Positions 30,676 to 42,055 of a DNA stretch of 52,783 bases are shown here, one piece after another; position 1 is the first letter of the stretch; each line of letters starts with the position of its first letter. Position numbers and translations under genes: made by a program. The notes under the pieces are model-generated. The model was not told the DNA's origin and did not search any database. It saw only the letters and a list, made by a program, of their open reading frames with translations. Source of the stretch: Actinomycetota bacterium (GTDB lineage Bacteria; Actinomycetota; Acidimicrobiia; Acidimicrobiales; JAJPHD01); NCBI GenBank assembly GCA_021325455.1, contig JAJPHD010000021.1, positions 1-52,783 of the forward strand, read 5' to 3'.

Positions 30676-32088
30676 ATGATCGAGAGCCGTTCCCCCCAGC
30701 GACCCGACGATGTGGTGGTGACCGCCCCGGATATGGGCCGTGACGAGGTGGCCGCCGCCGTGCGCACCGCCCGCCAGGCCGCCCTCGCCTGGACGAACGT
30801 GCCGGCACCGGCCCGGGCCCGGGCCCTCGAGGGGGTGGCAGGAGCCATCGAGGCAGCAGCGGCCGAGCTGTCGGACCTGATGGTGAGGGAGGTGGGAAAG
30901 CCCCTCGACGAGGCCCGGGCGGAGATGGTGAGGACGGTCGCCATCTGGCGGTACTACGCCCAGCAGGGCCTCGACCCCGACGGGGCGACCTACCCTTCTG
31001 CCGACGGTCGCTCGCTCCTCATGCACCGGCGCCGGCCTCACGGCGTCGCCGGCCTCATCACCCCCTGGAACTTCCCCGCCGCCATCCCCTCCTGGAAGTC
31101 GGCCCCCGCCCTGGCCTGCGGCAACGCCGCCGTCCTCAAGCCCGCACCCGAGGCCACCGCCATGGCGCTCAGGCTGGCGGGGTGCGCCGCCCCCCATCTG
31201 CCCGAGGGCCTCCTGCAGGTGGTCACAGGAGAGGCGGGCACGGGGCAGGCCCTCGTGGGCCTGGCCGATGTGGTGTCCTTCACCGGGTCGGTGGCCGCCG
31301 GCCGGGCGGTGGCCCGGGCCGCCACCGAGCAGGGGGTGCCGGTGCAGGCCGAGATGGGCGGCCAGAACGCCTCCATCGTCCTCCCCGACGCGGACCTGGA
31401 GCAGGCCGCAGCCGTCGTGGCCGGGGCGGCCATGGGCTACGCCGGGCAGAAGTGCACCGCCACCAGCCGGGCGGTGGTGGTCGGGGACCCCGCTCCCTTC
31501 ACCGAGGCCCTGGTGGCTGCGGTGGAGGCCCTGCCGGTGGGCGATCCTGCCGAGCCGGCCAACGTCTCGGGCCCGGTGATCACGGCTGAGGCCCGGTCGG
31601 TGGTCCTGGGCGCCGTCCAGGAGGCCCGCAGCCGGGGAGGGAGGGTGCTGGCCGGCGGGGCCCCGGCCGAGCCGGGGTGGACCGTCCTGCCCACCCTGGT
31701 CGACGGGCTCGACCCCGGGGACCGGCTGGCCCAGGAGGAGGTCTTCGGCCCCCTGTGCGTGGTCCTGCCCGCCCAGGACGCCGACGGGGCCGTGTCCATC
31801 GCCAACGGCGTCCGCTACGGCCTGGTGACCTCGATCTTCACCTCCGATCTCGACCGGGCCCTCGAGCTCATGGGCCGGGTGGACACCGGCATGGTGAAGG
31901 TGAACGCCCCCACCTCGGGCGTGGACTTCTATGCCCCCTTCGGGGGCGAGAAGGCGTCATCCCTGGGACCCCGCGAGCAGGGGAAGGCCGCCCGCCACTT
32001 CTACACCTGGACCCAGACCATCACCCTGGCGCCGTCGGGGCGCGGAGACCGCCCCCCTAGCGCTGGAGGTACCAGTCCTCGGGGTTGA
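30676..32088 (+). CDS. Aldehyde dehydrogenase, probable 2-oxoglutarate semialdehyde dehydrogenase
   Basis: A 470-residue NAD(P)-dependent aldehyde dehydrogenase. Asn132 in ITPWNFPAA, Glu226 in VQAEMGGQNAS and the catalytic Cys260 in GYAGQKCTATSR are all present, and EEVFGPLCVVLPA is the usual late motif. The MGGQNAS and KCTATSR variants occur in ketoglutarate semialdehyde dehydrogenases. Placed next to hydroxyproline genes it would make 2-oxoglutarate from 2-oxoglutarate semialdehyde, the last step of the pathway; other short-chain semialdehydes are possible. AAGGAG lies about ten bases before the ATG. Its last 32 bases overlap the end of the convergent SBP-D gene. Confidence 0.88.
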   Translation: MIESRSPQRPDDVVVTAPDMGRDEVAAAVRTARQAALAWTNVPAPARARALEGVAGAIEAAAAELSDLMVREVGKPLDEARAEMVRTVAIWRYYAQQGLDPDGATYPSADGRSLLMHRRRPHGVAGLITPWNFPAAIPSWKSAPALACGNAAVLKPAPEATAMALRLAGCAAPHLPEGLLQVVTGEAGTGQALVGLADVVSFTGSVAAGRAVARAATEQGVPVQAEMGGQNASIVLPDADLEQAAAVVAGAAMGYAGQKCTATSRAVVVGDPAPFTEALVAAVEALPVGDPAEPANVSGPVITAEARSVVLGAVQEARSRGGRVLAGGAPAEPGWTVLPTLVDGLDPGDRLAQEEVFGPLCVVLPAQDADGAVSIANGVRYGLVTSIFTSDLDRALELMGRVDTGMVKVNAPTSGVDFYAPFGGEKASSLGPREQGKAARHFYTWTQTITLAPSGRGDRPPSAGGTSPRG

Positions 32089-33871
32089 TGTTGAGGATGG
32101 GGCTCTGGGGGAGGGCCCCTCCGAGGGAGGTCTTGATGGCCGAGACCTGCTGAGGAGCCACCGGCTGCCACAGCACGGGCAGGTTGCGGGCCATGAAGTC
32201 CTCGTAGGCGTACAGGGGCTTGGTGCCGCTGCTGGTGTGGGTGGACTGGATGAGGGCGTCGAGCTGGGAGCTCGAGTAGCTGCCGGCGTTGAAGGCCGCC
32301 CCGGTCTTGAACAGCTGGCCGCCGGTCGGGTACGAGTCGTTGCCGTAGAACCACGACAGGGAGCCGTAGTCCCCGATCTGCCACTTGCAGGCGGTCTGGC
32401 TGGGCTTGCAGGCCTGCACGGCCGAGAGGACGTCGGGGGTGGCGCTCACTTCCAGGGTGATGCCCGCCTTGGCGAAGTCCGACTTCATGAACTGGATCTC
32501 GGTGTTCTCCTCGGGCTGGCCGCTCGGGTAGAGGAAGCTGAACCGGAGGGGAGTGCCCGCCTTGACCCCGGCTCCGCAGTCGGAGGGCCCCGTACCCGGC
32601 CTCACGCAGGTGTCGGTGCCGCCTGCGACCACCTTCCAGCCATGGGCGGCCAGGATCTTCCTGGCCGTCGACACGCTGAAGGGATAGGGGTCGCGCCGCT
32701 CGTAGGGGCTGGCCAGCCCGGTAAGGGGCTTGATGGGCACGGGCCCGTACTCGGGTGTGGCGTCACCGTGGAAGGCCGCCGATATGTACCCCTTCTGGTC
32801 GATGAGGCGCTGCATGGCCTGGCGGATGTAGAGCTGGGAGAAGACCGGGCCGGCCGTGGGGTTGTGGTAGTTCAAGAACAGCACCGCTATGGCCCAGGCC
32901 CTCCAGGAAGCGACCCGGTAGCCGGGCAGGGGACGGCCGATGTCGGTGAAGGGCACGTAGCCGTAGGTCAGGCTGCCCGAGCGGAGGGAGTTGTACTCGG
33001 AGGAGGCTGAGGTGAACGGCTCCTCGACCAGCTTGGACAGGTGGGGCTTCACCGGCCCGGAGTAGCGCCGGTTGGGCACGAAGGTGGCCTCCCCGCTCGG
33101 ATCGAAGGCCGAGAGCTGGAAGGGCCCGTCCACCACCTTCCACAGGGGGTTGGAGGCGTAGGAGGACAGGTCCTTGGACTGGGAGGCGAGGAACTTGTAG
33201 ACGGCCTTCGCCCCCGTGCTCGACATGTCGTAGTTGCCCACCTTGCCCCCTGCCGAGGTCTTGTCCCAGGCGTGCTGGGGAAGGGGGGTTATCTGGCTCA
33301 GCTGGTTGTGCGTGAACCACTTCGGGTTGAAGCTGCGAGTGAGGTGGAGGGTGATGGTCCTGGTTCCCGAGAGCTTCACCGAGGAGATGTCATCGGGGAA
33401 GGCCCCGGGCACGTAGGCGAACCAGGCCGAGCGGTTGGCCTTCACCAGGTTGATCCAGAACTGCACGTCCCGGTTGGTCAAGGGCTTGCCGTCGGACCAC
33501 CTGTAGGGCTTGAGGGTGATCGTGACGGTGGTGTCGTGGTGGGTGTAGACGGGGGTGTCGGCCAGGCTGAGGGAGGTGTTGAGGACGGGCTGGGTGCCCT
33601 TGCCGAACCAGTACAGCGGCCGGTACAGGAGGAACTGGAAGTCGGAGATGTTGGTGTTGTTGGCGTACTGAGGCGGCATCAAGGGCAGGATGTAGTTGAT
33701 GGGGGATGCGGGGGGCTCGGCGAAGGTGGCCGTGCCGCCGGCTACGGCCTTGTGCTGCTTGGACCCCGACGAGCTGGCGGCGCCTCCGCAGGCCGCCAGG
33801 GCCAAGGCGGCCGCGGTCAGGGTGGAGGCCAGGGCCAGCCGGCTGCGATGGCGGGCTCGGCACAGGGGCAT
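32057..33871 (-). CDS. ABC transporter substrate-binding lipoprotein SBP-D
   Basis: A 604-residue family 5 lipoprotein with lipobox LALAAC (Cys28). It shares with the other paralogues INYILPLMPP, FLLYRPLYWFG, RWSDGKPLTNRDVQFW, YASNPLWKVVDGPF, LYIRQAMQRLIDQ, the Cys pairs DTCVRPGTGPSDCGAG and CKPSQTACKWQ, and a C-terminal LGGALPQSPILNINPEDWYL block. The ATG at 33871 is preferred over an earlier in-frame start because it gives a compact signal peptide and has AGGAGG eleven bases upstream. The gene is convergent with, and slightly overlaps, the semialdehyde dehydrogenase gene, and lies downstream of SBP-G on the same strand. It is probably another peptide-binding component for the same nutritional programme; the ligand is unknown. 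Confidence 0.93.
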   Translation of the reverse strand: MPLCRARHRSRLALASTLTAAALALAACGGAASSSGSKQHKAVAGGTATFAEPPASPINYILPLMPPQYANNTNISDFQFLLYRPLYWFGKGTQPVLNTSLSLADTPVYTHHDTTVTITLKPYRWSDGKPLTNRDVQFWINLVKANRSAWFAYVPGAFPDDISSVKLSGTRTITLHLTRSFNPKWFTHNQLSQITPLPQHAWDKTSAGGKVGNYDMSSTGAKAVYKFLASQSKDLSSYASNPLWKVVDGPFQLSAFDPSGEATFVPNRRYSGPVKPHLSKLVEEPFTSASSEYNSLRSGSLTYGYVPFTDIGRPLPGYRVASWRAWAIAVLFLNYHNPTAGPVFSQLYIRQAMQRLIDQKGYISAAFHGDATPEYGPVPIKPLTGLASPYERRDPYPFSVSTARKILAAHGWKVVAGGTDTCVRPGTGPSDCGAGVKAGTPLRFSFLYPSGQPEENTEIQFMKSDFAKAGITLEVSATPDVLSAVQACKPSQTACKWQIGDYGSLSWFYGNDSYPTGGQLFKTGAAFNAGSYSSSQLDALIQSTHTSSGTKPLYAYEDFMARNLPVLWQPVAPQQVSAIKTSLGGALPQSPILNINPEDWYLQR

Positions 33872-33982
33872 GGGGGTGGAACCTCCTCGTGCTGGGCGGG
33901 ATCCGACTTCAGTGGGTCGTGCTCGGCAACCTAGCCACGGCGACACCCGTATGCCAAGGCGCCTCCCCGAGGCTGCACTACC

Positions 33983-35698
33983 TCAGGCCTTGGCCGCGTT
34001 CCACAAGAAGAGCTCGCCGATGGCGGTGGGGTACACGCCCGTGACGTTCTTCTGGGTGGCACTCAGGAAGTCGTAGAAGTACGGGTAGATGATGGGCGTC
34101 TCGTCCAGGAGGAGCAGCTCGATCTTCTTGGCCAACCGCCTCTGGGTGGACAGGTCGGGGGAGGACACGAACTCCTTGGAGAGCTTGTCGTAGGTGGGGT
34201 TGTCGAACCGGGCCGCGTTCCACGAGCCCTGGCCCGTCTTGGGGTTGATGGTCTGCAGGGGCGCCTCGAGGAACAGGTTGGGCACGGCCCGGGCGGCGTA
34301 GTCCACCAGGCTCATCTCGCCGTCGAGCCAGTCCGACTTCCCGAAGACGGCCTGCCCGTAGTACTTCGTGGTGCTCTCGATGGTGAGCTTGATGTCCACG
34401 CCTATCTGGGCCGCCGACTCCTTGATGATCTCGGCCAGGTGGGGGATCTCCTCGTCGTTCTCGGTCAGGAGGGAGGCCGAGAAACCTCTGGGCACCCCCC
34501 CTCTGGCCAGCAGCTCCTTGGCCAGCTTCAGGTCCTTCCTGCGCTGGGTCACAGGGACGTAGGACTTGAAGACGGGCGCGAAAGGATTGTCGTTCCCCAC
34601 CTCGGCATATCCCTTCCACAGGGCCTTGACGATGGCCGGGCGGTCCAGGGTGTAGGCGATGGCCTGGCGAACATACTTGTTCGTGAAGGGATGCATGTCG
34701 TTGCGCATGGAGCACTCGCGATGCGAGCTTCCCTTGACGGCGATCACCTTGTAGTTCCCGTTCAGGAGCTGTGGGCTCACGGCCACGGTGAACTGGTCGA
34801 GGGCGTCGATGGTGCCCGCCTCCAGGGCCGAGGTGGCAGCCGGGTCCTCTGCGAAGAACGTGAAGCGGGTCTCGGCGGGGAGGGCGGGCTTTCCCCAGTA
34901 GTGGGGATTGCGGACGAAGGTCGCCCCCACGTTGGGCGTGTAGCTGGTCTTCTTGAACTTCCCCGTCCCGATGAAGGACTTCTGGTAGTCGGCGAAGTCG
35001 TACCCGGCCGGGACGATGATCATGTTGTAGTTGTCTTCCGAGACGGCATCGGGGAAGCTGGCGTCGGGGCTCTCCAGGTGGAACTCGACCGTCTCCTCGT
35101 CCCTCTTCACCACGCCCTCGGGGGACAGCATGCCCGCGAATATGGACAGGGCGTTGGAGGAGCTCTTGGGATTGGACTGGGCCTTGAAGGAGTAGACCAC
35201 GTCATCGACCGTCATGGGCCGTCCGTCGTTGAACTTCACGCCCTGGCGGATCTTGAAGGTCCACACGGTGGCATCGGCGTTGGGCTTCCAGCTGGTGGCC
35301 AGCCAGGGGTGGTAGTTGTAGTGCTGGTCGCTGAACACCAGCCACTCCCCCACCTGGCCCAGCATCTGCAGGCCGCCCTCGTCGGAGATGGTGATCGGGT
35401 TGATGGCTGCCGCCGGGGTGCTGGTGCCCACCTTGATGGTGGCCCCCGCCCTTCCGCGTGCCGCCGCGCTGGTGGCCGGCCTGGAAGGGCCCGGGGCCGA
35501 GCTGCCGCAGGCGGCCAGGATGCCCCCCAGGACCGGCACCGACAGGCCGAGGAGCGTCCCGCGCTGCAGGAACTCCCGGCGGGACACCCGGCCCGCCGCG
35601 AACTCGTCGATCAGGTGCTCGGGGATGGGCCCTCGGCCCCGGCGGAGGGGGTCCAGCCGGCCATGGTCGATGCTGCGGACCTCGTCTTCGCCGTCCAT
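33983..35698 (-). CDS. ABC transporter substrate-binding protein SBP-G, Tat-type lipoprotein
   Basis: A 571-residue family 5 binding protein that is not one of the SBP-A to SBP-F set. An unusually long n-region ends in the twin-arginine motif SRREFLQ (Arg40-Arg41), then a hydrophobic stretch and lipobox GGILAAC (Cys64), so it should be exported folded through Tat and lipidated. The mature part has the standard DppA-like signatures HPWLATSWKPNADATVW, FKIRQGVKFNDGRPMTVDDV and YVRQAIAYTLDRPAIVK. It lacks the Cys pairs and the YIFPL block of its neighbours. TAGGGT lies nine bases before the ATG on the minus strand and may be a -10 element of a nearly leaderless transcript. Ligand unknown; peptides or sugars-oligomers are typical of the family. 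Confidence 0.92.
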   Translation of the reverse strand: MDGEDEVRSIDHGRLDPLRRGRGPIPEHLIDEFAAGRVSRREFLQRGTLLGLSVPVLGGILAACGSSAPGPSRPATSAAARGRAGATIKVGTSTPAAAINPITISDEGGLQMLGQVGEWLVFSDQHYNYHPWLATSWKPNADATVWTFKIRQGVKFNDGRPMTVDDVVYSFKAQSNPKSSSNALSIFAGMLSPEGVVKRDEETVEFHLESPDASFPDAVSEDNYNMIIVPAGYDFADYQKSFIGTGKFKKTSYTPNVGATFVRNPHYWGKPALPAETRFTFFAEDPAATSALEAGTIDALDQFTVAVSPQLLNGNYKVIAVKGSSHRECSMRNDMHPFTNKYVRQAIAYTLDRPAIVKALWKGYAEVGNDNPFAPVFKSYVPVTQRRKDLKLAKELLARGGVPRGFSASLLTENDEEIPHLAEIIKESAAQIGVDIKLTIESTTKYYGQAVFGKSDWLDGEMSLVDYAARAVPNLFLEAPLQTINPKTGQGSWNAARFDNPTYDKLSKEFVSSPDLSTQRRLAKKIELLLLDETPIIYPYFYDFLSATQKNVTGVYPTAIGELFLWNAAKA

Positions 35699-35851: not shown

Positions 35852-38800
35852 ATGGGACTGACGGGGCGCAGGCAGGGATGGCCGGTGCTGGCCCAGGTGC
35901 GGGGACCGGACCGCCTGGGACGAGGAGCCGCCGCCCGCTCGGCCCGCACGGCGAGGCTCCAGCCCAGGACGGCCAGTGCCGACCGGGTAGTCAAGTCGGT
36001 GTGCCCCTACTGTGCCGTGGGCTGCGGCCAGGAGGTCTACGTGCGGGACGGCAGGGTGGTGCAGATAGAGGGCGACCCTGACAGCCCGCTGTCGAGGGGC
36101 CGGCTCTGCCCCAAGGGCTCTGCCAGCTTGCAGCTCACCACCGGTTCGGCCCGGGAGCACCGTGTGCGCTACCGCCCTCCCCATGGGAGCGACTGGGAGG
36201 ACCTGGACCTGGACCGGGCCCTGGACATGATCGCCGACCGCGTCATCGAGACGAGGCGCCGTACCTGGCAGGAGCACAAGCAGGACGGCACGCGGCTCCG
36301 GCGGACCATGGGCATTGCCAGCCTCGGTGGGGCCACCCTCGACAACGAGGAGAACTACCTCATGAAGAAGCTCTACACGGCCTTGGGGGTCGTGCAGGTC
36401 GAGAACCAGGCCCGCATCTGACACTCCTCCACCGTCCCCAGTTTGGGGACCTCGTTCGGGAGGGGCGGGGCCACCACCTTCCCCGCTGACCTGCAGGGCT
36501 CGGACTGCATCGTGATCCAGGGATCGAACATGGCGGAGTGCCATCCGGTGGCCTTCCAGTGGGTGATGGAGGCCAAGGCCCGGGGAGCCAAGGTCATACA
36601 CGTCGATCCCCGCTTCACGCGCACCAGTGCCGTGGCCGACCTGCATGTCCCGCTGCGTGCCGGCTCGGACATCGCCTTCCTCGGGGGGCTCATCCACCAT
36701 GTGCTCACCCAGGGTGCCGACTTCCGCGAGTACCTCGTCGCCTACACCAATGCCCCCACGATCCTGCGAGAGGACTTCGCCGACACTGAGGACCTGGACG
36801 GGCTGTTCTCCGGCTTCGACCCTGCCACCCGCCACTACGACCCGGTGACCTGGCAGTACGAGGGCATGAAGGTGGCGGCGGCGGCGGGCCAGAGGGACGA
36901 GGAGCACGACGACTGGGTCAGGCGGAGGGCCAGGGCCGGCCACGAGACCCAGCGGGCCGACGCCATGGGGAGCCATGGCGCCGTCTTCGGTGGCCGGCCC
37001 GAGCGGGACGAGACCCTGCAGCACCCGCGCTGCGTCTACCAGGTCCTTCGCCGCCACTTCTCCCGTTACACGCCCGAGCTGGTGGAGGAGCTGTGCGGGG
37101 TCCCCCGGGAGCTCTTCTTGGAGGTGGCCGAGGCCATCTGCTCAAACTCCGGCCGCGAGCGCACGACGGCCTTCGTCTATGCCGTGGGCTGGACCCACCA
37201 CACGGTCGGCGTCCAGTACATCCGCACCGCTGCCATCCTCCAGCTCCTGCTCGGGAACATCGGCAGGCCGGGCGGGGGGATCATGGCGCTGCGAGGGCAC
37301 GCCAGCATCCAGGGGTCCACCGACATCCCCACCCTCTTCAACATCCTCCCCGGCTACATCCCCATGCCCCATGCCCACCACGACCAGGACCTGGCAGCCT
37401 TCATCGCCGGCGACGCCGGCGACACCGGGTACTGGGGCAACATGGGCGCCTACACCGTGAGCCTGCTCAAGGCCTGGTGGGGGGACAAGGCCCAGCCGGA
37501 GAACGACTTCTGCTTCGACTACCTCCCCCGCCTGGACGGCCCGGCGGGGACATACCAGACGGTGGCGGGACAGATCGACGGAACGGTCAAGGGGTACTTC
37601 CTGGTGGGAGAGAACCCCGCCGTGGGCTCGGCCAACGCCAAGATGCAGCGCCTCGGCCTCGCCAACCTGGACTGGCTGGTGGTGCGGGACTTCTCCCTCA
37701 TCGAGTCGGCCACCTTCTGGAAGGACGGCCCCGAGATCGAGACCGGGGAGCTGAGGCCCGAGGAGATCGGCACCGAGGTCTTCTTCCTCCCCGCTGCCGC
37801 CCACACCGAGAAGGACGGCAGCTTCACCAACACCCAGCGCCTCCTCCAGTGGCACCACAAGGCCGTGGAGCCCGAAGGAGACGACCGCAGCGACCTGTGG
37901 TTCTACTACCACCTGGGCAGGCGCATCAGGGACAAGCTGGCTGGCTCCGCCGACGAGATGGACCGGCCCATCCTGGACCTGACCTGGGAATACCCGACCG
38001 AGGGACCGCTCGCCGAGCCTTCCGCCGAGGCCGTCCTCAGAGAGGTGAACGGCTGGGGGCCCGACGGGAGGGCTCTCGGCTCGTACACCGAGCTGGCTGC
38101 TGACGGGTCCACCGCCTGCGGGTGCTGGATCTATTGCGGTTGCTTCGCCGGAGAGGTGAACCAGACGGCCAGGCGCCGGCCGGCCTCGGAGCAGTCCTGG
38201 GTGGCACCGGAGTGGGGGTGGGCCTGGCCGGCCAACCGTCGCATCCTCTACAACCGGGCCTCCGCCGACCCGGGGGGCAGGCCCTGGAGCGAGCGCAAGG
38301 CCTACGTGTGGTGGGACGAGGACCAGGGCCGCTGGACCGGCCACGACGTGCCCGATTTCGAGCCCACCAAGCACCCCGGCTACGTGCCACCCGAAGGCGC
38401 CCGGGCCGAGGAAGCCATAGGGGGGGCGGATCCCTTCATCATGCAGGCCGACGGCAAGGGTTGGCTGTACGTACCGTCGGGCCTCGTGGACGGCCCCTTG
38501 CCCACCCATTACGAGCCCGTCGAGTCCCCGGTCCCCAACCCCTTGTACGCCTGCCAGCACAACCCGGTGAGGGAGGGCATGGCCCGCCCGGAGAACCCCT
38601 ATAACCCCTCCGGAGGCGCTCCGGGCTCGGAGGCCTTTCCCTTCGTCTTCACCACCTACCGGCTCACGGAGCACCACACGGCCGGCGGGATGAGCCGGTG
38701 GCAACCGTACCTGTCCGAGCTCCAGCCCGAGATGTTCTGCGAGGTGTCCCCCGCCCTCGCCGCTGAGCGGGGCCTCGAGCCCCTCGGATGGGCCACGATC

Positions 38801-39106
38801 GTCACGGCCCGCACTGCCATCGAGGCGCGGGTGCTCGTCACCGACCGCATGGCCCCTCTCAAGGTGGGGGGCCGCACCATCCACCAGGTGGGCCTCCCCT
38901 ACCACTGGGGGCCCAACGGGCTGGTGAGGGGGGATGCAGCCAATGAGCTCCTGGCCGTGGTCATGGACCCCAACGTCCACATCCAGGAGGCGAAGTGCGC
39001 CACCTGTGACGTGATCCCCGGCCGCCGCCCCCGGGGCCCGGCCCTCCTCGCGCTGGTGGAGCGCTACCGCCGTCAGGCCCAGTCACCCCCCGGAGGTGGC
39101 CGGTGA
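35852..39106 (+). CDS. fdhA: Formate dehydrogenase alpha subunit, selenocysteine-containing
   Basis: A 1084-residue molybdopterin enzyme when the in-frame TGA at 36419-36421 is read as selenocysteine (Sec190). Both sides of the TGA belong to one protein: upstream VENQARI, downstream HSSTVPSLGTSFGRGG, exactly the context of FDH active sites with His191 after Sec. The N-terminal 4Fe-4S ligands are Cys51, Cys54, Cys58 and Cys86; later parts carry GMALRGHASIQGSTD-like and STACGCWIYCGC segments of the FdnG/FdhG group and a dinucleotide-binding C-terminal domain. Formate is oxidised to CO2 and electrons pass to FdhB. Length is slightly above that of E. coli FdnG. No hydrophobic Tat signal follows the early GRRQGW. 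ATG start with GAGGTG five bases upstream; the next gene overlaps by four bases. Confidence 0.95.
36419..36421 (+). other. UGA codon read as selenocysteine (Sec190 of FdhA)
   Basis: The TGA interrupts an otherwise open frame from 35852 to 39106, at the position where formate dehydrogenases have Sec or Cys, followed directly by the conserved His. A hairpin with SECIS character starts within the next ten bases. The selenium insertion genes selA, selB, selC and selD are not in the window and must be elsewhere. Confidence 0.93.
36426..36463 (+). promoter_or_regulatory. Bacterial SECIS-like hairpin in fdhA
   Basis: Upper stem GTCCCC (36434-36439) pairs with GGGGAC (36445-36450) around the loop AGTTT, which contains the GU step typical of SelB-binding loops. 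A lower stem CCTCC (36426-36430) pairs with GGAGG (36459-36463). The apical stem begins 12 bases after the TGA, in the range known for bacterial SECIS elements. Confidence 0.75.
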
Positions 39107-39951
39107 GCGTCTCAGTGACCACCGGGACCAACCGCCTGGCCGGGCCCCTTGCCGACCCCGCCGGCGAGGCCGGCTGGGAAGGTGCCCCGCCCCGGGTGGG
39201 GTTCTTCACCGACACCTCGGTCTGCATCGGCTGCAAGGCCTGCGAGGTGGCCTGCAAGGAGTGGAACCGGGTCCCCGACGACGGGTTCCGCTTCCTCGGC
39301 CACTCCTATGACAACACCGGCGGGCTGTCCGCCTCCACCTGGCGCCACGTCGCCTTCGTGGAAAAGCCCCTTCCCGACGGCAAGGGCCTGGCCTGGCTCA
39401 TGTCCTCGGACGTGTGCAAGCACTGCACCCACGCTGCCTGCCTCGACGTGTGCCCGACCGGTGCCCTCCTGCGGACCGAGTTCGGCACGGTCGTGGTCCA
39501 GGAGGACGTGTGCAACGGATGCGGGTACTGCGTGCCGGCCTGCCCTTACGGGGTGATCGACCAGAGGCCGGGTGACGGCCGGGCCTGGAAGTGCACGCTC
39601 TGCTACGACCGTCTGGGCCAGGGGCTGGAGCCGGCCTGTGCCAAGGCCTGCCCCACCAAGTCGATCCAGTTCGGCCCCTTGGACGAGCTGCGCCAGCGAG
39701 CCCGGTCCCGGCTGGCGGAGGTCAGGGCCAGCGGGGCGGCGTCGGCCCGCCTCTACGGGGAGGACCCCGGGGACGGCGTGGGGGGGGCCGGCGCCTTCTT
39801 CCTGCTCCTCGACGAGCCCGAGGTCTACGGGCTGCCCCCTGACCCCGTGGTGACCACCAGGGACCTGCCCTCCATGTGGCGGCGGGCCGCCGTGGCCGCG
39901 GGCGCCCTCCTGGCCGGGGCGGCGGCGGCCTTCCTGGGGGCGGCCCAATGA
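39103..39951 (+). CDS. fdhB: Formate dehydrogenase beta subunit, 4x(4Fe-4S) ferredoxin protein
   Basis: A 282-residue iron-sulfur protein with four cysteine groups: CIGCKACEVACKEWN, CKHCTHAACLDVCPTG, CNGCGYCVPACPYG and CTLCYDRLG plus ACAKACPTKS, the layout of FdnH/HybA-type subunits that wire formate oxidation to a membrane partner. The C-terminus ends in one hydrophobic segment (WRRAAVAAGALLAGAAAAFL) that should anchor the complex. The GTG start overlaps the fdhA stop (GTGA), and its own stop overlaps the next start (ATGA), so the three subunits are coupled. No signal peptide is present. Confidence 0.94.
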   Translation: MSVSVTTGTNRLAGPLADPAGEAGWEGAPPRVGFFTDTSVCIGCKACEVACKEWNRVPDDGFRFLGHSYDNTGGLSASTWRHVAFVEKPLPDGKGLAWLMSSDVCKHCTHAACLDVCPTGALLRTEFGTVVVQEDVCNGCGYCVPACPYGVIDQRPGDGRAWKCTLCYDRLGQGLEPACAKACPTKSIQFGPLDELRQRARSRLAEVRASGAASARLYGEDPGDGVGGAGAFFLLLDEPEVYGLPPDPVVTTRDLPSMWRRAAVAAGALLAGAAAAFLGAAQ

Positions 39952-40961
39952 GCCGCCGGCGCCAGCACCAGATGGTCCCCGAGGCCGAGGTGTCCAGCTA
40001 CGACTCCTATTATGGCCGGCCCGTCCTCAAGCGGCCCACCTGGTCCGCCCGATACATAGCGAGCTACCTCTTCCTGGGGGGCCTGGCCGGAGCTTCGGCG
40101 TTGCTCGGGGCGGGGGCGGACCTCACCGGGCGCCCCGCCCTGCGCAGGTCCGGGCGCCTGGTTGCGGCCGCTGCCATCGCCGCCTCGGCGGTGGCCCTCG
40201 TCGAGGACCTGGGGCGGCCCGAGCGGTTCCTCAACATGCTGAGGATGGCCAAGCCCACCTCGCCCATGAGCGTCGGGTCCTGGGTGCTCGCCGGGTTCGG
40301 GCCCTCCGCCGGCCTGGCCGCCGCCTCGGAGGTGGGCAGGGCGCTGCCGGGCGGCCTGGGGCGCCTCGCCACCAGGGCGGGAAGGGGCGCCGGCCTGGGC
40401 TCTGCCCTCCTGGGCCCCGCGGTGGCCACCTACACGGCGGTCCTCCTCTCCGATACGGCCGTGCCCACCTGGCACGGCGCCTACCCCGAGCTCCCCTTCC
40501 TCTTCGCGGCGTCCTCTGCTGCCGCGGCCGGGGGGGTGGCGGCCGTGCTGACCCCCCCGGGCCAGGCTGGCCCGGCCCGCCGCCTGGGCGTTGCCGGCGC
40601 AGCCGTCGAGCTTGGTGCCGGCGAGCTGATGTCCCGCAGGCTGGGAATGGCGGCCGAGACGTTGCGCCACGGACGGGCGGGGAGGCTCAACCTGGCCGCC
40701 AGGGCCCTCACGGGCGCAGGCGGGGTGCTGACCTTGGCGGCCGGGCGCCGGAGCAGGGCGGCGGCCGCGACAGGAGGCGCCCTGCTGGCCGCCGGCTCGG
40801 CCTGCACCCGCTTCGCCCTGTTCGAGGCCGGGGTGGCCTCCACCGAGGACCCCAGGTACACCGTGGTCCCTCAACGCTCCCGGCTCCGAGCCAGGGAACC
40901 GGGAGGCGGAATAGCCAGAGCGAGGGAGGCCGGCCCGGAGCCGACCGGCTCCCACGCCTGA
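39948..40961 (+). CDS. NrfD/PsrC-type membrane subunit of the formate dehydrogenase
   Basis: A 337-residue polytopic membrane protein. After a polar N-terminus with YYGRPVLKRPTWSARYIASYLFLGGLAG-type sequence (starting near residue 21) it shows about eight hydrophobic segments, and VALVEDLGRPERFLNMLRM and SPMSVGSWVL, which are hallmarks of NrfD-like quinone-linked subunits. It replaces the cytochrome b subunit of E. coli Fdn and likely passes electrons to menaquinone. The ATG lies in an ATGA overlap with fdhB. The C-terminal 40 residues are rich in Arg and polar and probably cytoplasmic. Confidence 0.92.
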   Translation: MSRRRQHQMVPEAEVSSYDSYYGRPVLKRPTWSARYIASYLFLGGLAGASALLGAGADLTGRPALRRSGRLVAAAAIAASAVALVEDLGRPERFLNMLRMAKPTSPMSVGSWVLAGFGPSAGLAAASEVGRALPGGLGRLATRAGRGAGLGSALLGPAVATYTAVLLSDTAVPTWHGAYPELPFLFAASSAAAAGGVAAVLTPPGQAGPARRLGVAGAAVELGAGELMSRRLGMAAETLRHGRAGRLNLAARALTGAGGVLTLAAGRRSRAAAATGGALLAAGSACTRFALFEAGVASTEDPRYTVVPQRSRLRAREPGGGIARAREAGPEPTGSHA

Positions 40962-41023: not shown

Positions 41024-42055
41024 TCAGCGGCGCCGGCTGGGCCGCCCCGGGCCGGGGGGGCGAGCGTCCAGGGAGTCCAGACGAGGCTGGGGCGGCGGCC
41101 GGAACCCCCTCTTCAGGGTCTGCAGCTCGAGGTCCGTCTCGACGTTCTCCACCCCGGGGAGCGAGCCCAAAGAGGCGGTTATGAAGCTGTAGAAGGCCTC
41201 GGTGTCGCGCAGCACCACTTCGCAGGCCAGGTCGCTGTAGCCGGTGGTGGCCGCTATGTAGCGCACGGCAGGCTGACCGGCCAGCATGGCGGCCACGGTC
41301 TCCAGGCGCGATGGCTCGACCCGCATCCGGACGAAGATCTCGATCTCGTAGCCCAGGAGACCCGGGTCCACCAATGTGGCCAGGCACAAGCAGCCGTCGG
41401 CAATGAGCGCTCGCATCCTGCGGGCCACCGATGTCTCGCTCAGCCCCAGCTCGGCGGACAGGTCGGCGTAGCTCCGCCGCCCGTCCGTGCCGAGGGCAGA
41501 GATGAGCCTCAGGTCCACCTCGTCCGGCCTCTGCCCGGGCCCCGCCGGTCCGCCGTCCTCCAGCCTGGCCTCCAGGGCCGCCACCTCCTCGCCCAGCAGC
41601 TCCCGGCTCCAGTCGTAGCTGGTCTTGAAGGTGCGCAGCACGGTCTCGGTCGTTGTCTCCACCACCCCGCCCAGGACCTGGATCTCGTCCAGCAGCACGG
41701 AGGTGAGGTACTGGCGGTCGGGGGCGATGAGCTCGCAGATGACGTCGTTGCGCCCGGTGATGAGGGCCACGAAGCGGGCATCGTCCCTCTTCACCAGCTG
41801 GGAGCCCACCTGCCGGGCCGAGCCCGGGGTGGTTCGCAGCTGCACCAGGACCGGCCGGCCCGACCCGCACCGGAGGGGATCGGGCAGGCCCACGATGACC
41901 AGGCACCCGGCCCGGAGGAGGCGCTGAGCCCGCCGGGCGACCGTTGTCTGGGAGGTGCCGAGGACGCTGGCCAGCTGCTCCCAGCTGGCCCGGGGGCTGA
42001 TCTGGAGGGCGGCCATGATGCGCCGGTCCATGCTGTCCAGGCGGTCGCGGGCCAT
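41024..42055 (-). CDS. Lrp/AsnC family regulator with two tandem HTH-ligand modules
   Basis: A 343-residue protein containing two copies of the Lrp/AsnC arrangement. Module 1 has the helix-turn-helix SMDRRIMAALQ with ASWEQLASVLGTSQTTVARR (about 8-42) and a ligand-sensing part with ALITGRNDVICELIAPDRQYL. Module 2 repeats this with DEVDLRLISALGTDGRRSYADL and LGLSETSVARRMRAL (about 178-217), then RYIAATTGYSDLACEVVLRD. Single-module Lrp proteins are about 150 residues, so this is a natural tandem form known in actinobacteria. Such regulators sense amino acids, which suits the amino-acid and peptide genes around it; its targets are not known. It converges with the fdh operon and is downstream of the propeller/dipeptidase set. 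Confidence 0.9.
   Translation of the reverse strand: MARDRLDSMDRRIMAALQISPRASWEQLASVLGTSQTTVARRAQRLLRAGCLVIVGLPDPLRCGSGRPVLVQLRTTPGSARQVGSQLVKRDDARFVALITGRNDVICELIAPDRQYLTSVLLDEIQVLGGVVETTTETVLRTFKTSYDWSRELLGEEVAALEARLEDGGPAGPGQRPDEVDLRLISALGTDGRRSYADLSAELGLSETSVARRMRALIADGCLCLATLVDPGLLGYEIEIFVRMRVEPSRLETVAAMLAGQPAVRYIAATTGYSDLACEVVLRDTEAFYSFITASLGSLPGVENVETDLELQTLKRGFRPPPQPRLDSLDARPPGPGRPSRRR

Follow-up and report, generated by a model that had tools for sequence, protein, structure and literature searches.

An in-frame UGA codon very probably read as selenocysteine in a formate dehydrogenase gene of an Acidimicrobiales bacterium

Results

The window, by which we mean the whole 52,783-nucleotide stretch of DNA that was analysed, contains a gene coding for the alpha subunit of formate dehydrogenase (fdhA) that is directly followed by genes for two partner subunits. 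The features of this locus, with the basis of each assignment in brackets, are:

35852–39106, forward strand: fdhA, formate dehydrogenase alpha subunit, 1084 amino acids with U190 (NF041513, domains, homologue alignments)
35984–36136, forward strand: 4Fe-4S (Molybdop_Fe4S4) domain, residues 45–95, upstream of the UGA (Pfam)
36419–36421, forward strand: UGA codon, very probably selenocysteine, residue 190, at the Mo/W ligand position (homologue codons; alignment with 1h0h chain A)
36434–36450, forward strand: apical bacterial SECIS hairpin, 7-bp stem, conserved loop opening with G-U (folding, covariation, covariance model)
39103–39951, forward strand: fdhB, iron-sulfur (beta) subunit with several 4Fe-4S domains, its start overlapping the fdhA stop (ORF list, NCBIfam/Pfam)
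39948–40961, forward strand: fdhC-like membrane (gamma) subunit of the NrfD family, overlapping fdhB (PF03916, 9.8e-13)

The fdhA gene forms a single frame whose sole internal stop is the TGA at codon 190, directly followed by a CAC (His) codon, and whose terminal stop is a second TGA at 39104–39106. We infer that translation starts at the ATG at 35852, as homologues align from residue 1–10. The read-through product matches the NCBIfam model for actinobacterial formate dehydrogenase (NF041513) over residues 8–1074 with 1998.7 bits, relative to a curated cut-off of 1400 bits, and its match to the FDH-N alpha model TIGR01553 likewise exceeds the cut-off. Pfam places a molybdopterin domain at residues 152–616, spanning the selenocysteine, and a dinucleotide-binding domain at residues 931–1047, and identity to the proteins of many Actinomycetes is about 70–75%. 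In a phmmer alignment with 1h0h chain A, residue 190 falls opposite a non-standard residue (X) in the motif QARI-X-HS. The frame check and this alignment together bear out the original prediction of a frame broken only by a TGA at the active-site position in front of a His codon, and the predicted mass of 119.4 kDa fits the anticipated protein of about 120 kDa.

The starts and stops of fdhA, fdhB and the fdhC-like gene overlap, and the three genes are therefore likely to form one operon. Downstream of the fdhC-like gene, on the opposite strand, lies a gene (41024–42055, reverse strand) for a protein containing a tandem pair of Lrp/AsnC regulator units, which could act as a regulator of nearby genes. 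Just upstream of fdhA are two adjacent genes for peptide-type solute-binding proteins, both on the reverse strand, with the one at 33983–35698 matching SBP_bac_5 and the one at 32057–33946 assigned by eye.

We read the codon at the selenocysteine site from alignments of 110 matched stretches. These include the window's own and come from the same order or from named Actinomycetes, and 109 of them cover the site. The codon is TGA in 97 of the 109, TAG in six and a Cys codon in the remaining six (TGC in four, TGT in two). The TAG copies all belong to Blastococcus or Geodermatophilus (L080, L083, L085, L115, L116 and L124) and retain the SECIS hairpin, which agrees with the published UAG-selenocysteine recoding by a tRNA-Sec with a CUA anticodon in the Geodermatophilaceae (PMC5330540). 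By contrast, the hairpin is gone from the Cys copies (L032, L109, L118, L121, L123 and L128).

The hairpin begins 12 bases past the TGA, where 36434–36440 pairs with 36444–36450 around a loop that reads GUU, or AGUUU with the A-U pair opened. Its folding energy is unremarkable in this GC-rich DNA (z of -1.3 to -1.7 for 45- and 51-base stretches) and an Rfam scan of the window gave no match at the gathering score. Since the energy of the single sequence is not significant, the case for the hairpin rests on a comparison of relatives. Among 73 distinct stop-codon sequences, every pair of the upper stem is a standard pair in all 73 and the loop starts with G-U in every one. Particularly informative is pair 18-30, which joins the third codon positions of a Val and a Gly codon and covaries while the protein stays unchanged (GTC/GGG in 40 sequences, GTT/GGA in 17, GTT/GGG in 11, GTG/GGC in four and GTG/GGT in one). 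This pair is Watson-Crick in 61 sequences, whereas 10,000 shuffles gave 34.7 on average and never more than 47, and a second covariation count on 14 sequences agrees, with none of 500 shuffles reaching its score; these shuffle statistics are inflated by relatedness among the sequences. The count on 73 sequences is the fairer of the two because the 14 were chosen for diversity and include the second formate dehydrogenase of this genome. In the Cys copies the stem is disrupted, at pair 19-29 in six of six and at pairs 18-30 and 21-27 in five of six. Synonymous covariation together with loss of the stem in Cys copies would be hard to explain other than by a selected hairpin.

The original prediction had described a two-part hairpin with a GU loop 12 bases past the TGA. 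The upper stem and loop of that description hold, but relatives do not share the lower helix of the window's own fold, several of whose pairs are present in just 11–28 of the 73 sequences. Judged from this alignment, the conserved SECIS element is the upper stem and GU loop only. When the hairpins were used to build a covariance model and the genome was searched with it, the two formate dehydrogenase sites were recovered (E values of 1.4e-10 and 6.5e-7), with no other match below an E value of 1; both sites are among the training sequences of the model, so this search speaks for its specificity and not for discovery.

The genome also contains the selenium insertion machinery that had been predicted for the host, with selA, selB, tRNA-Sec and selD all scoring above curated cut-offs. 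The selB (256.7 bits) and selA (413.6 bits) genes adjoin at C14:25093-28031 and lie within 18 kb of tRNA-Sec (C14:10034-10125, 67.2 bits), to which ARAGORN assigns a UCA anticodon. The selD gene is on another contig (C17:383263, 353.3 bits). Across the order, selA is present in 22 of the 23 tested genomes that carry a TGA copy of fdhA, the exception being an assembly of about 290 contigs (G018) in which no selA was found. No selA was found in G080, the one same-order genome seen to carry a Cys copy, nor in 10 of 12 tested same-order genomes that lack a close fdhA.

Two further genes of this genome have in-frame TGA codons. The selD gene has one (G000:C17:383293, L133) in the motif SHGAG-U-ACK, which we take to be the usual selenocysteine/cysteine site of SelD, followed by a strong hairpin, and SelD is thus probably itself a selenoprotein. 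A second formate dehydrogenase alpha subunit gene (G000:C18:107364, L132), judged to be of the cytoplasmic NAD-linked type, has a TGA as well, within the motif NRT-U-H, and its hairpin is similar, with the loop GGUCU. A comparable TGA-containing match occurs in many genomes of the order, also where these lack the first formate dehydrogenase.

Discussion

These results leave very little doubt that fdhA codes for a bacterial selenoprotein of the standard kind, the UGA at codon 190 being read as selenocysteine. Sequencing errors and pseudogene mutations can in general leave a lone stop within an intact frame, yet the same codon is kept in the great majority of homologues from many genera, which indicates that it is neither a read error nor a private mutation. 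The hairpin is moreover selected at synonymous sites and the remainder of the 1084-codon frame is intact, making a defective or misread gene extremely improbable. A changed genetic code in which TGA is a general sense codon would likewise account for the TGA codons inside the otherwise open frames of fdhA, the second formate dehydrogenase gene and selD. However, all three of these codons sit at known selenocysteine positions, the tRNA-Sec has a UCA anticodon, and fdhA itself terminates at a TGA near the end of homologue similarity. TGA is thus an ordinary stop at the end of the same gene, which indicates local recoding, and the likelihood of a changed code is vanishingly small.

The mechanical ORF list shows fdhA as two ORFs, as would be expected if an N-terminal protein really ended at the TGA and the rest were made from a start of its own, the TTG at 36443. 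This arrangement is very unlikely, since the TAG and Cys variants at codon 190 indicate that an amino acid is required there, and since a split would leave the 4Fe-4S and Mo domains on different proteins and lose the metal ligand. The original prediction was right that the 4Fe-4S site, which precedes the TGA, would be lost by such a split; its expectation that automatic annotation makes this split is true of the mechanical list but overlooks the dedicated full-length model held by NCBI (NF041513). The selenocysteine reading implies that fdhA is an intact gene and is due for annotation as one 1084-residue selenoprotein.

In the mechanism that we propose, a ribosome would arrive at the UGA, the hairpin that closely follows would bind SelB with its Sec-tRNA-Sec, and selenocysteine would be inserted so that translation continues past the UGA. 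The selenium-containing residue is predicted to ligate the metal (Mo or W) of the bis-MGD cofactor, and the FeS and NrfD-type membrane subunits encoded directly downstream would complete the enzyme, with electrons presumably flowing to quinone. The predicted formate oxidation in this lineage is probably selenium-dependent.

By sequence, FdhA belongs to the same family as E. coli formate dehydrogenase-N (1kqf) and the Desulfovibrio gigas W-formate dehydrogenase (1h0h), with the selenocysteine aligned in the latter. The E. coli enzyme has a Tat-type N-terminal signal and a cytochrome b gamma subunit, whereas FdhA appears to have no such signal, by inspection of its translated start, and its gamma subunit is NrfD-type. 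The hairpin resembles the E. coli fdhF and fdnG SECIS elements in lying just past the UGA and in having G-U in its apical loop, which is GGUCU in most of the relatives here. In the E. coli elements the upper stem also contains a bulged U and is joined to a lower helix, whereas, as far as compared, the hairpin described here lacks the bulged U and does not conserve a lower helix. One tentative and rather doubtful explanation is that actinobacterial SelB recognises a reduced SECIS with a perfect 7-bp stem and a G-U loop, lacking both the bulged U and a fixed lower helix. If true, its recognition rules would differ from those of E. coli SelB.

The original prediction of a selenocysteine-containing formate dehydrogenase is correct, and the finding is an ordinary one of a kind already known. 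The alpha subunit of formate dehydrogenase is, together with SelD, the most widespread bacterial selenoprotein, with 822 organisms listed for its family (PMC5029168). Our literature search for Acidimicrobiia selenoproteins found nothing; among other actinobacteria, the selenocysteine-containing FDH1 and FDH2 of Actinomycetospora chiangmaiensis are physiologically selenium-dependent (PMC7176365) and a selenocysteine-containing FDH-O with selABCD has been reported for Streptomyces incarnatus (PMC4498112). The enzyme described here is like these in its full-length match to the actinobacterial model, its active-site selenocysteine and its FeS and gamma partners. The selA and selB genes of A. chiangmaiensis lie within its FDH1 cluster, whereas here they are off the contig of the fdh operon, and beyond this placement nothing of substance distinguishes the two systems.
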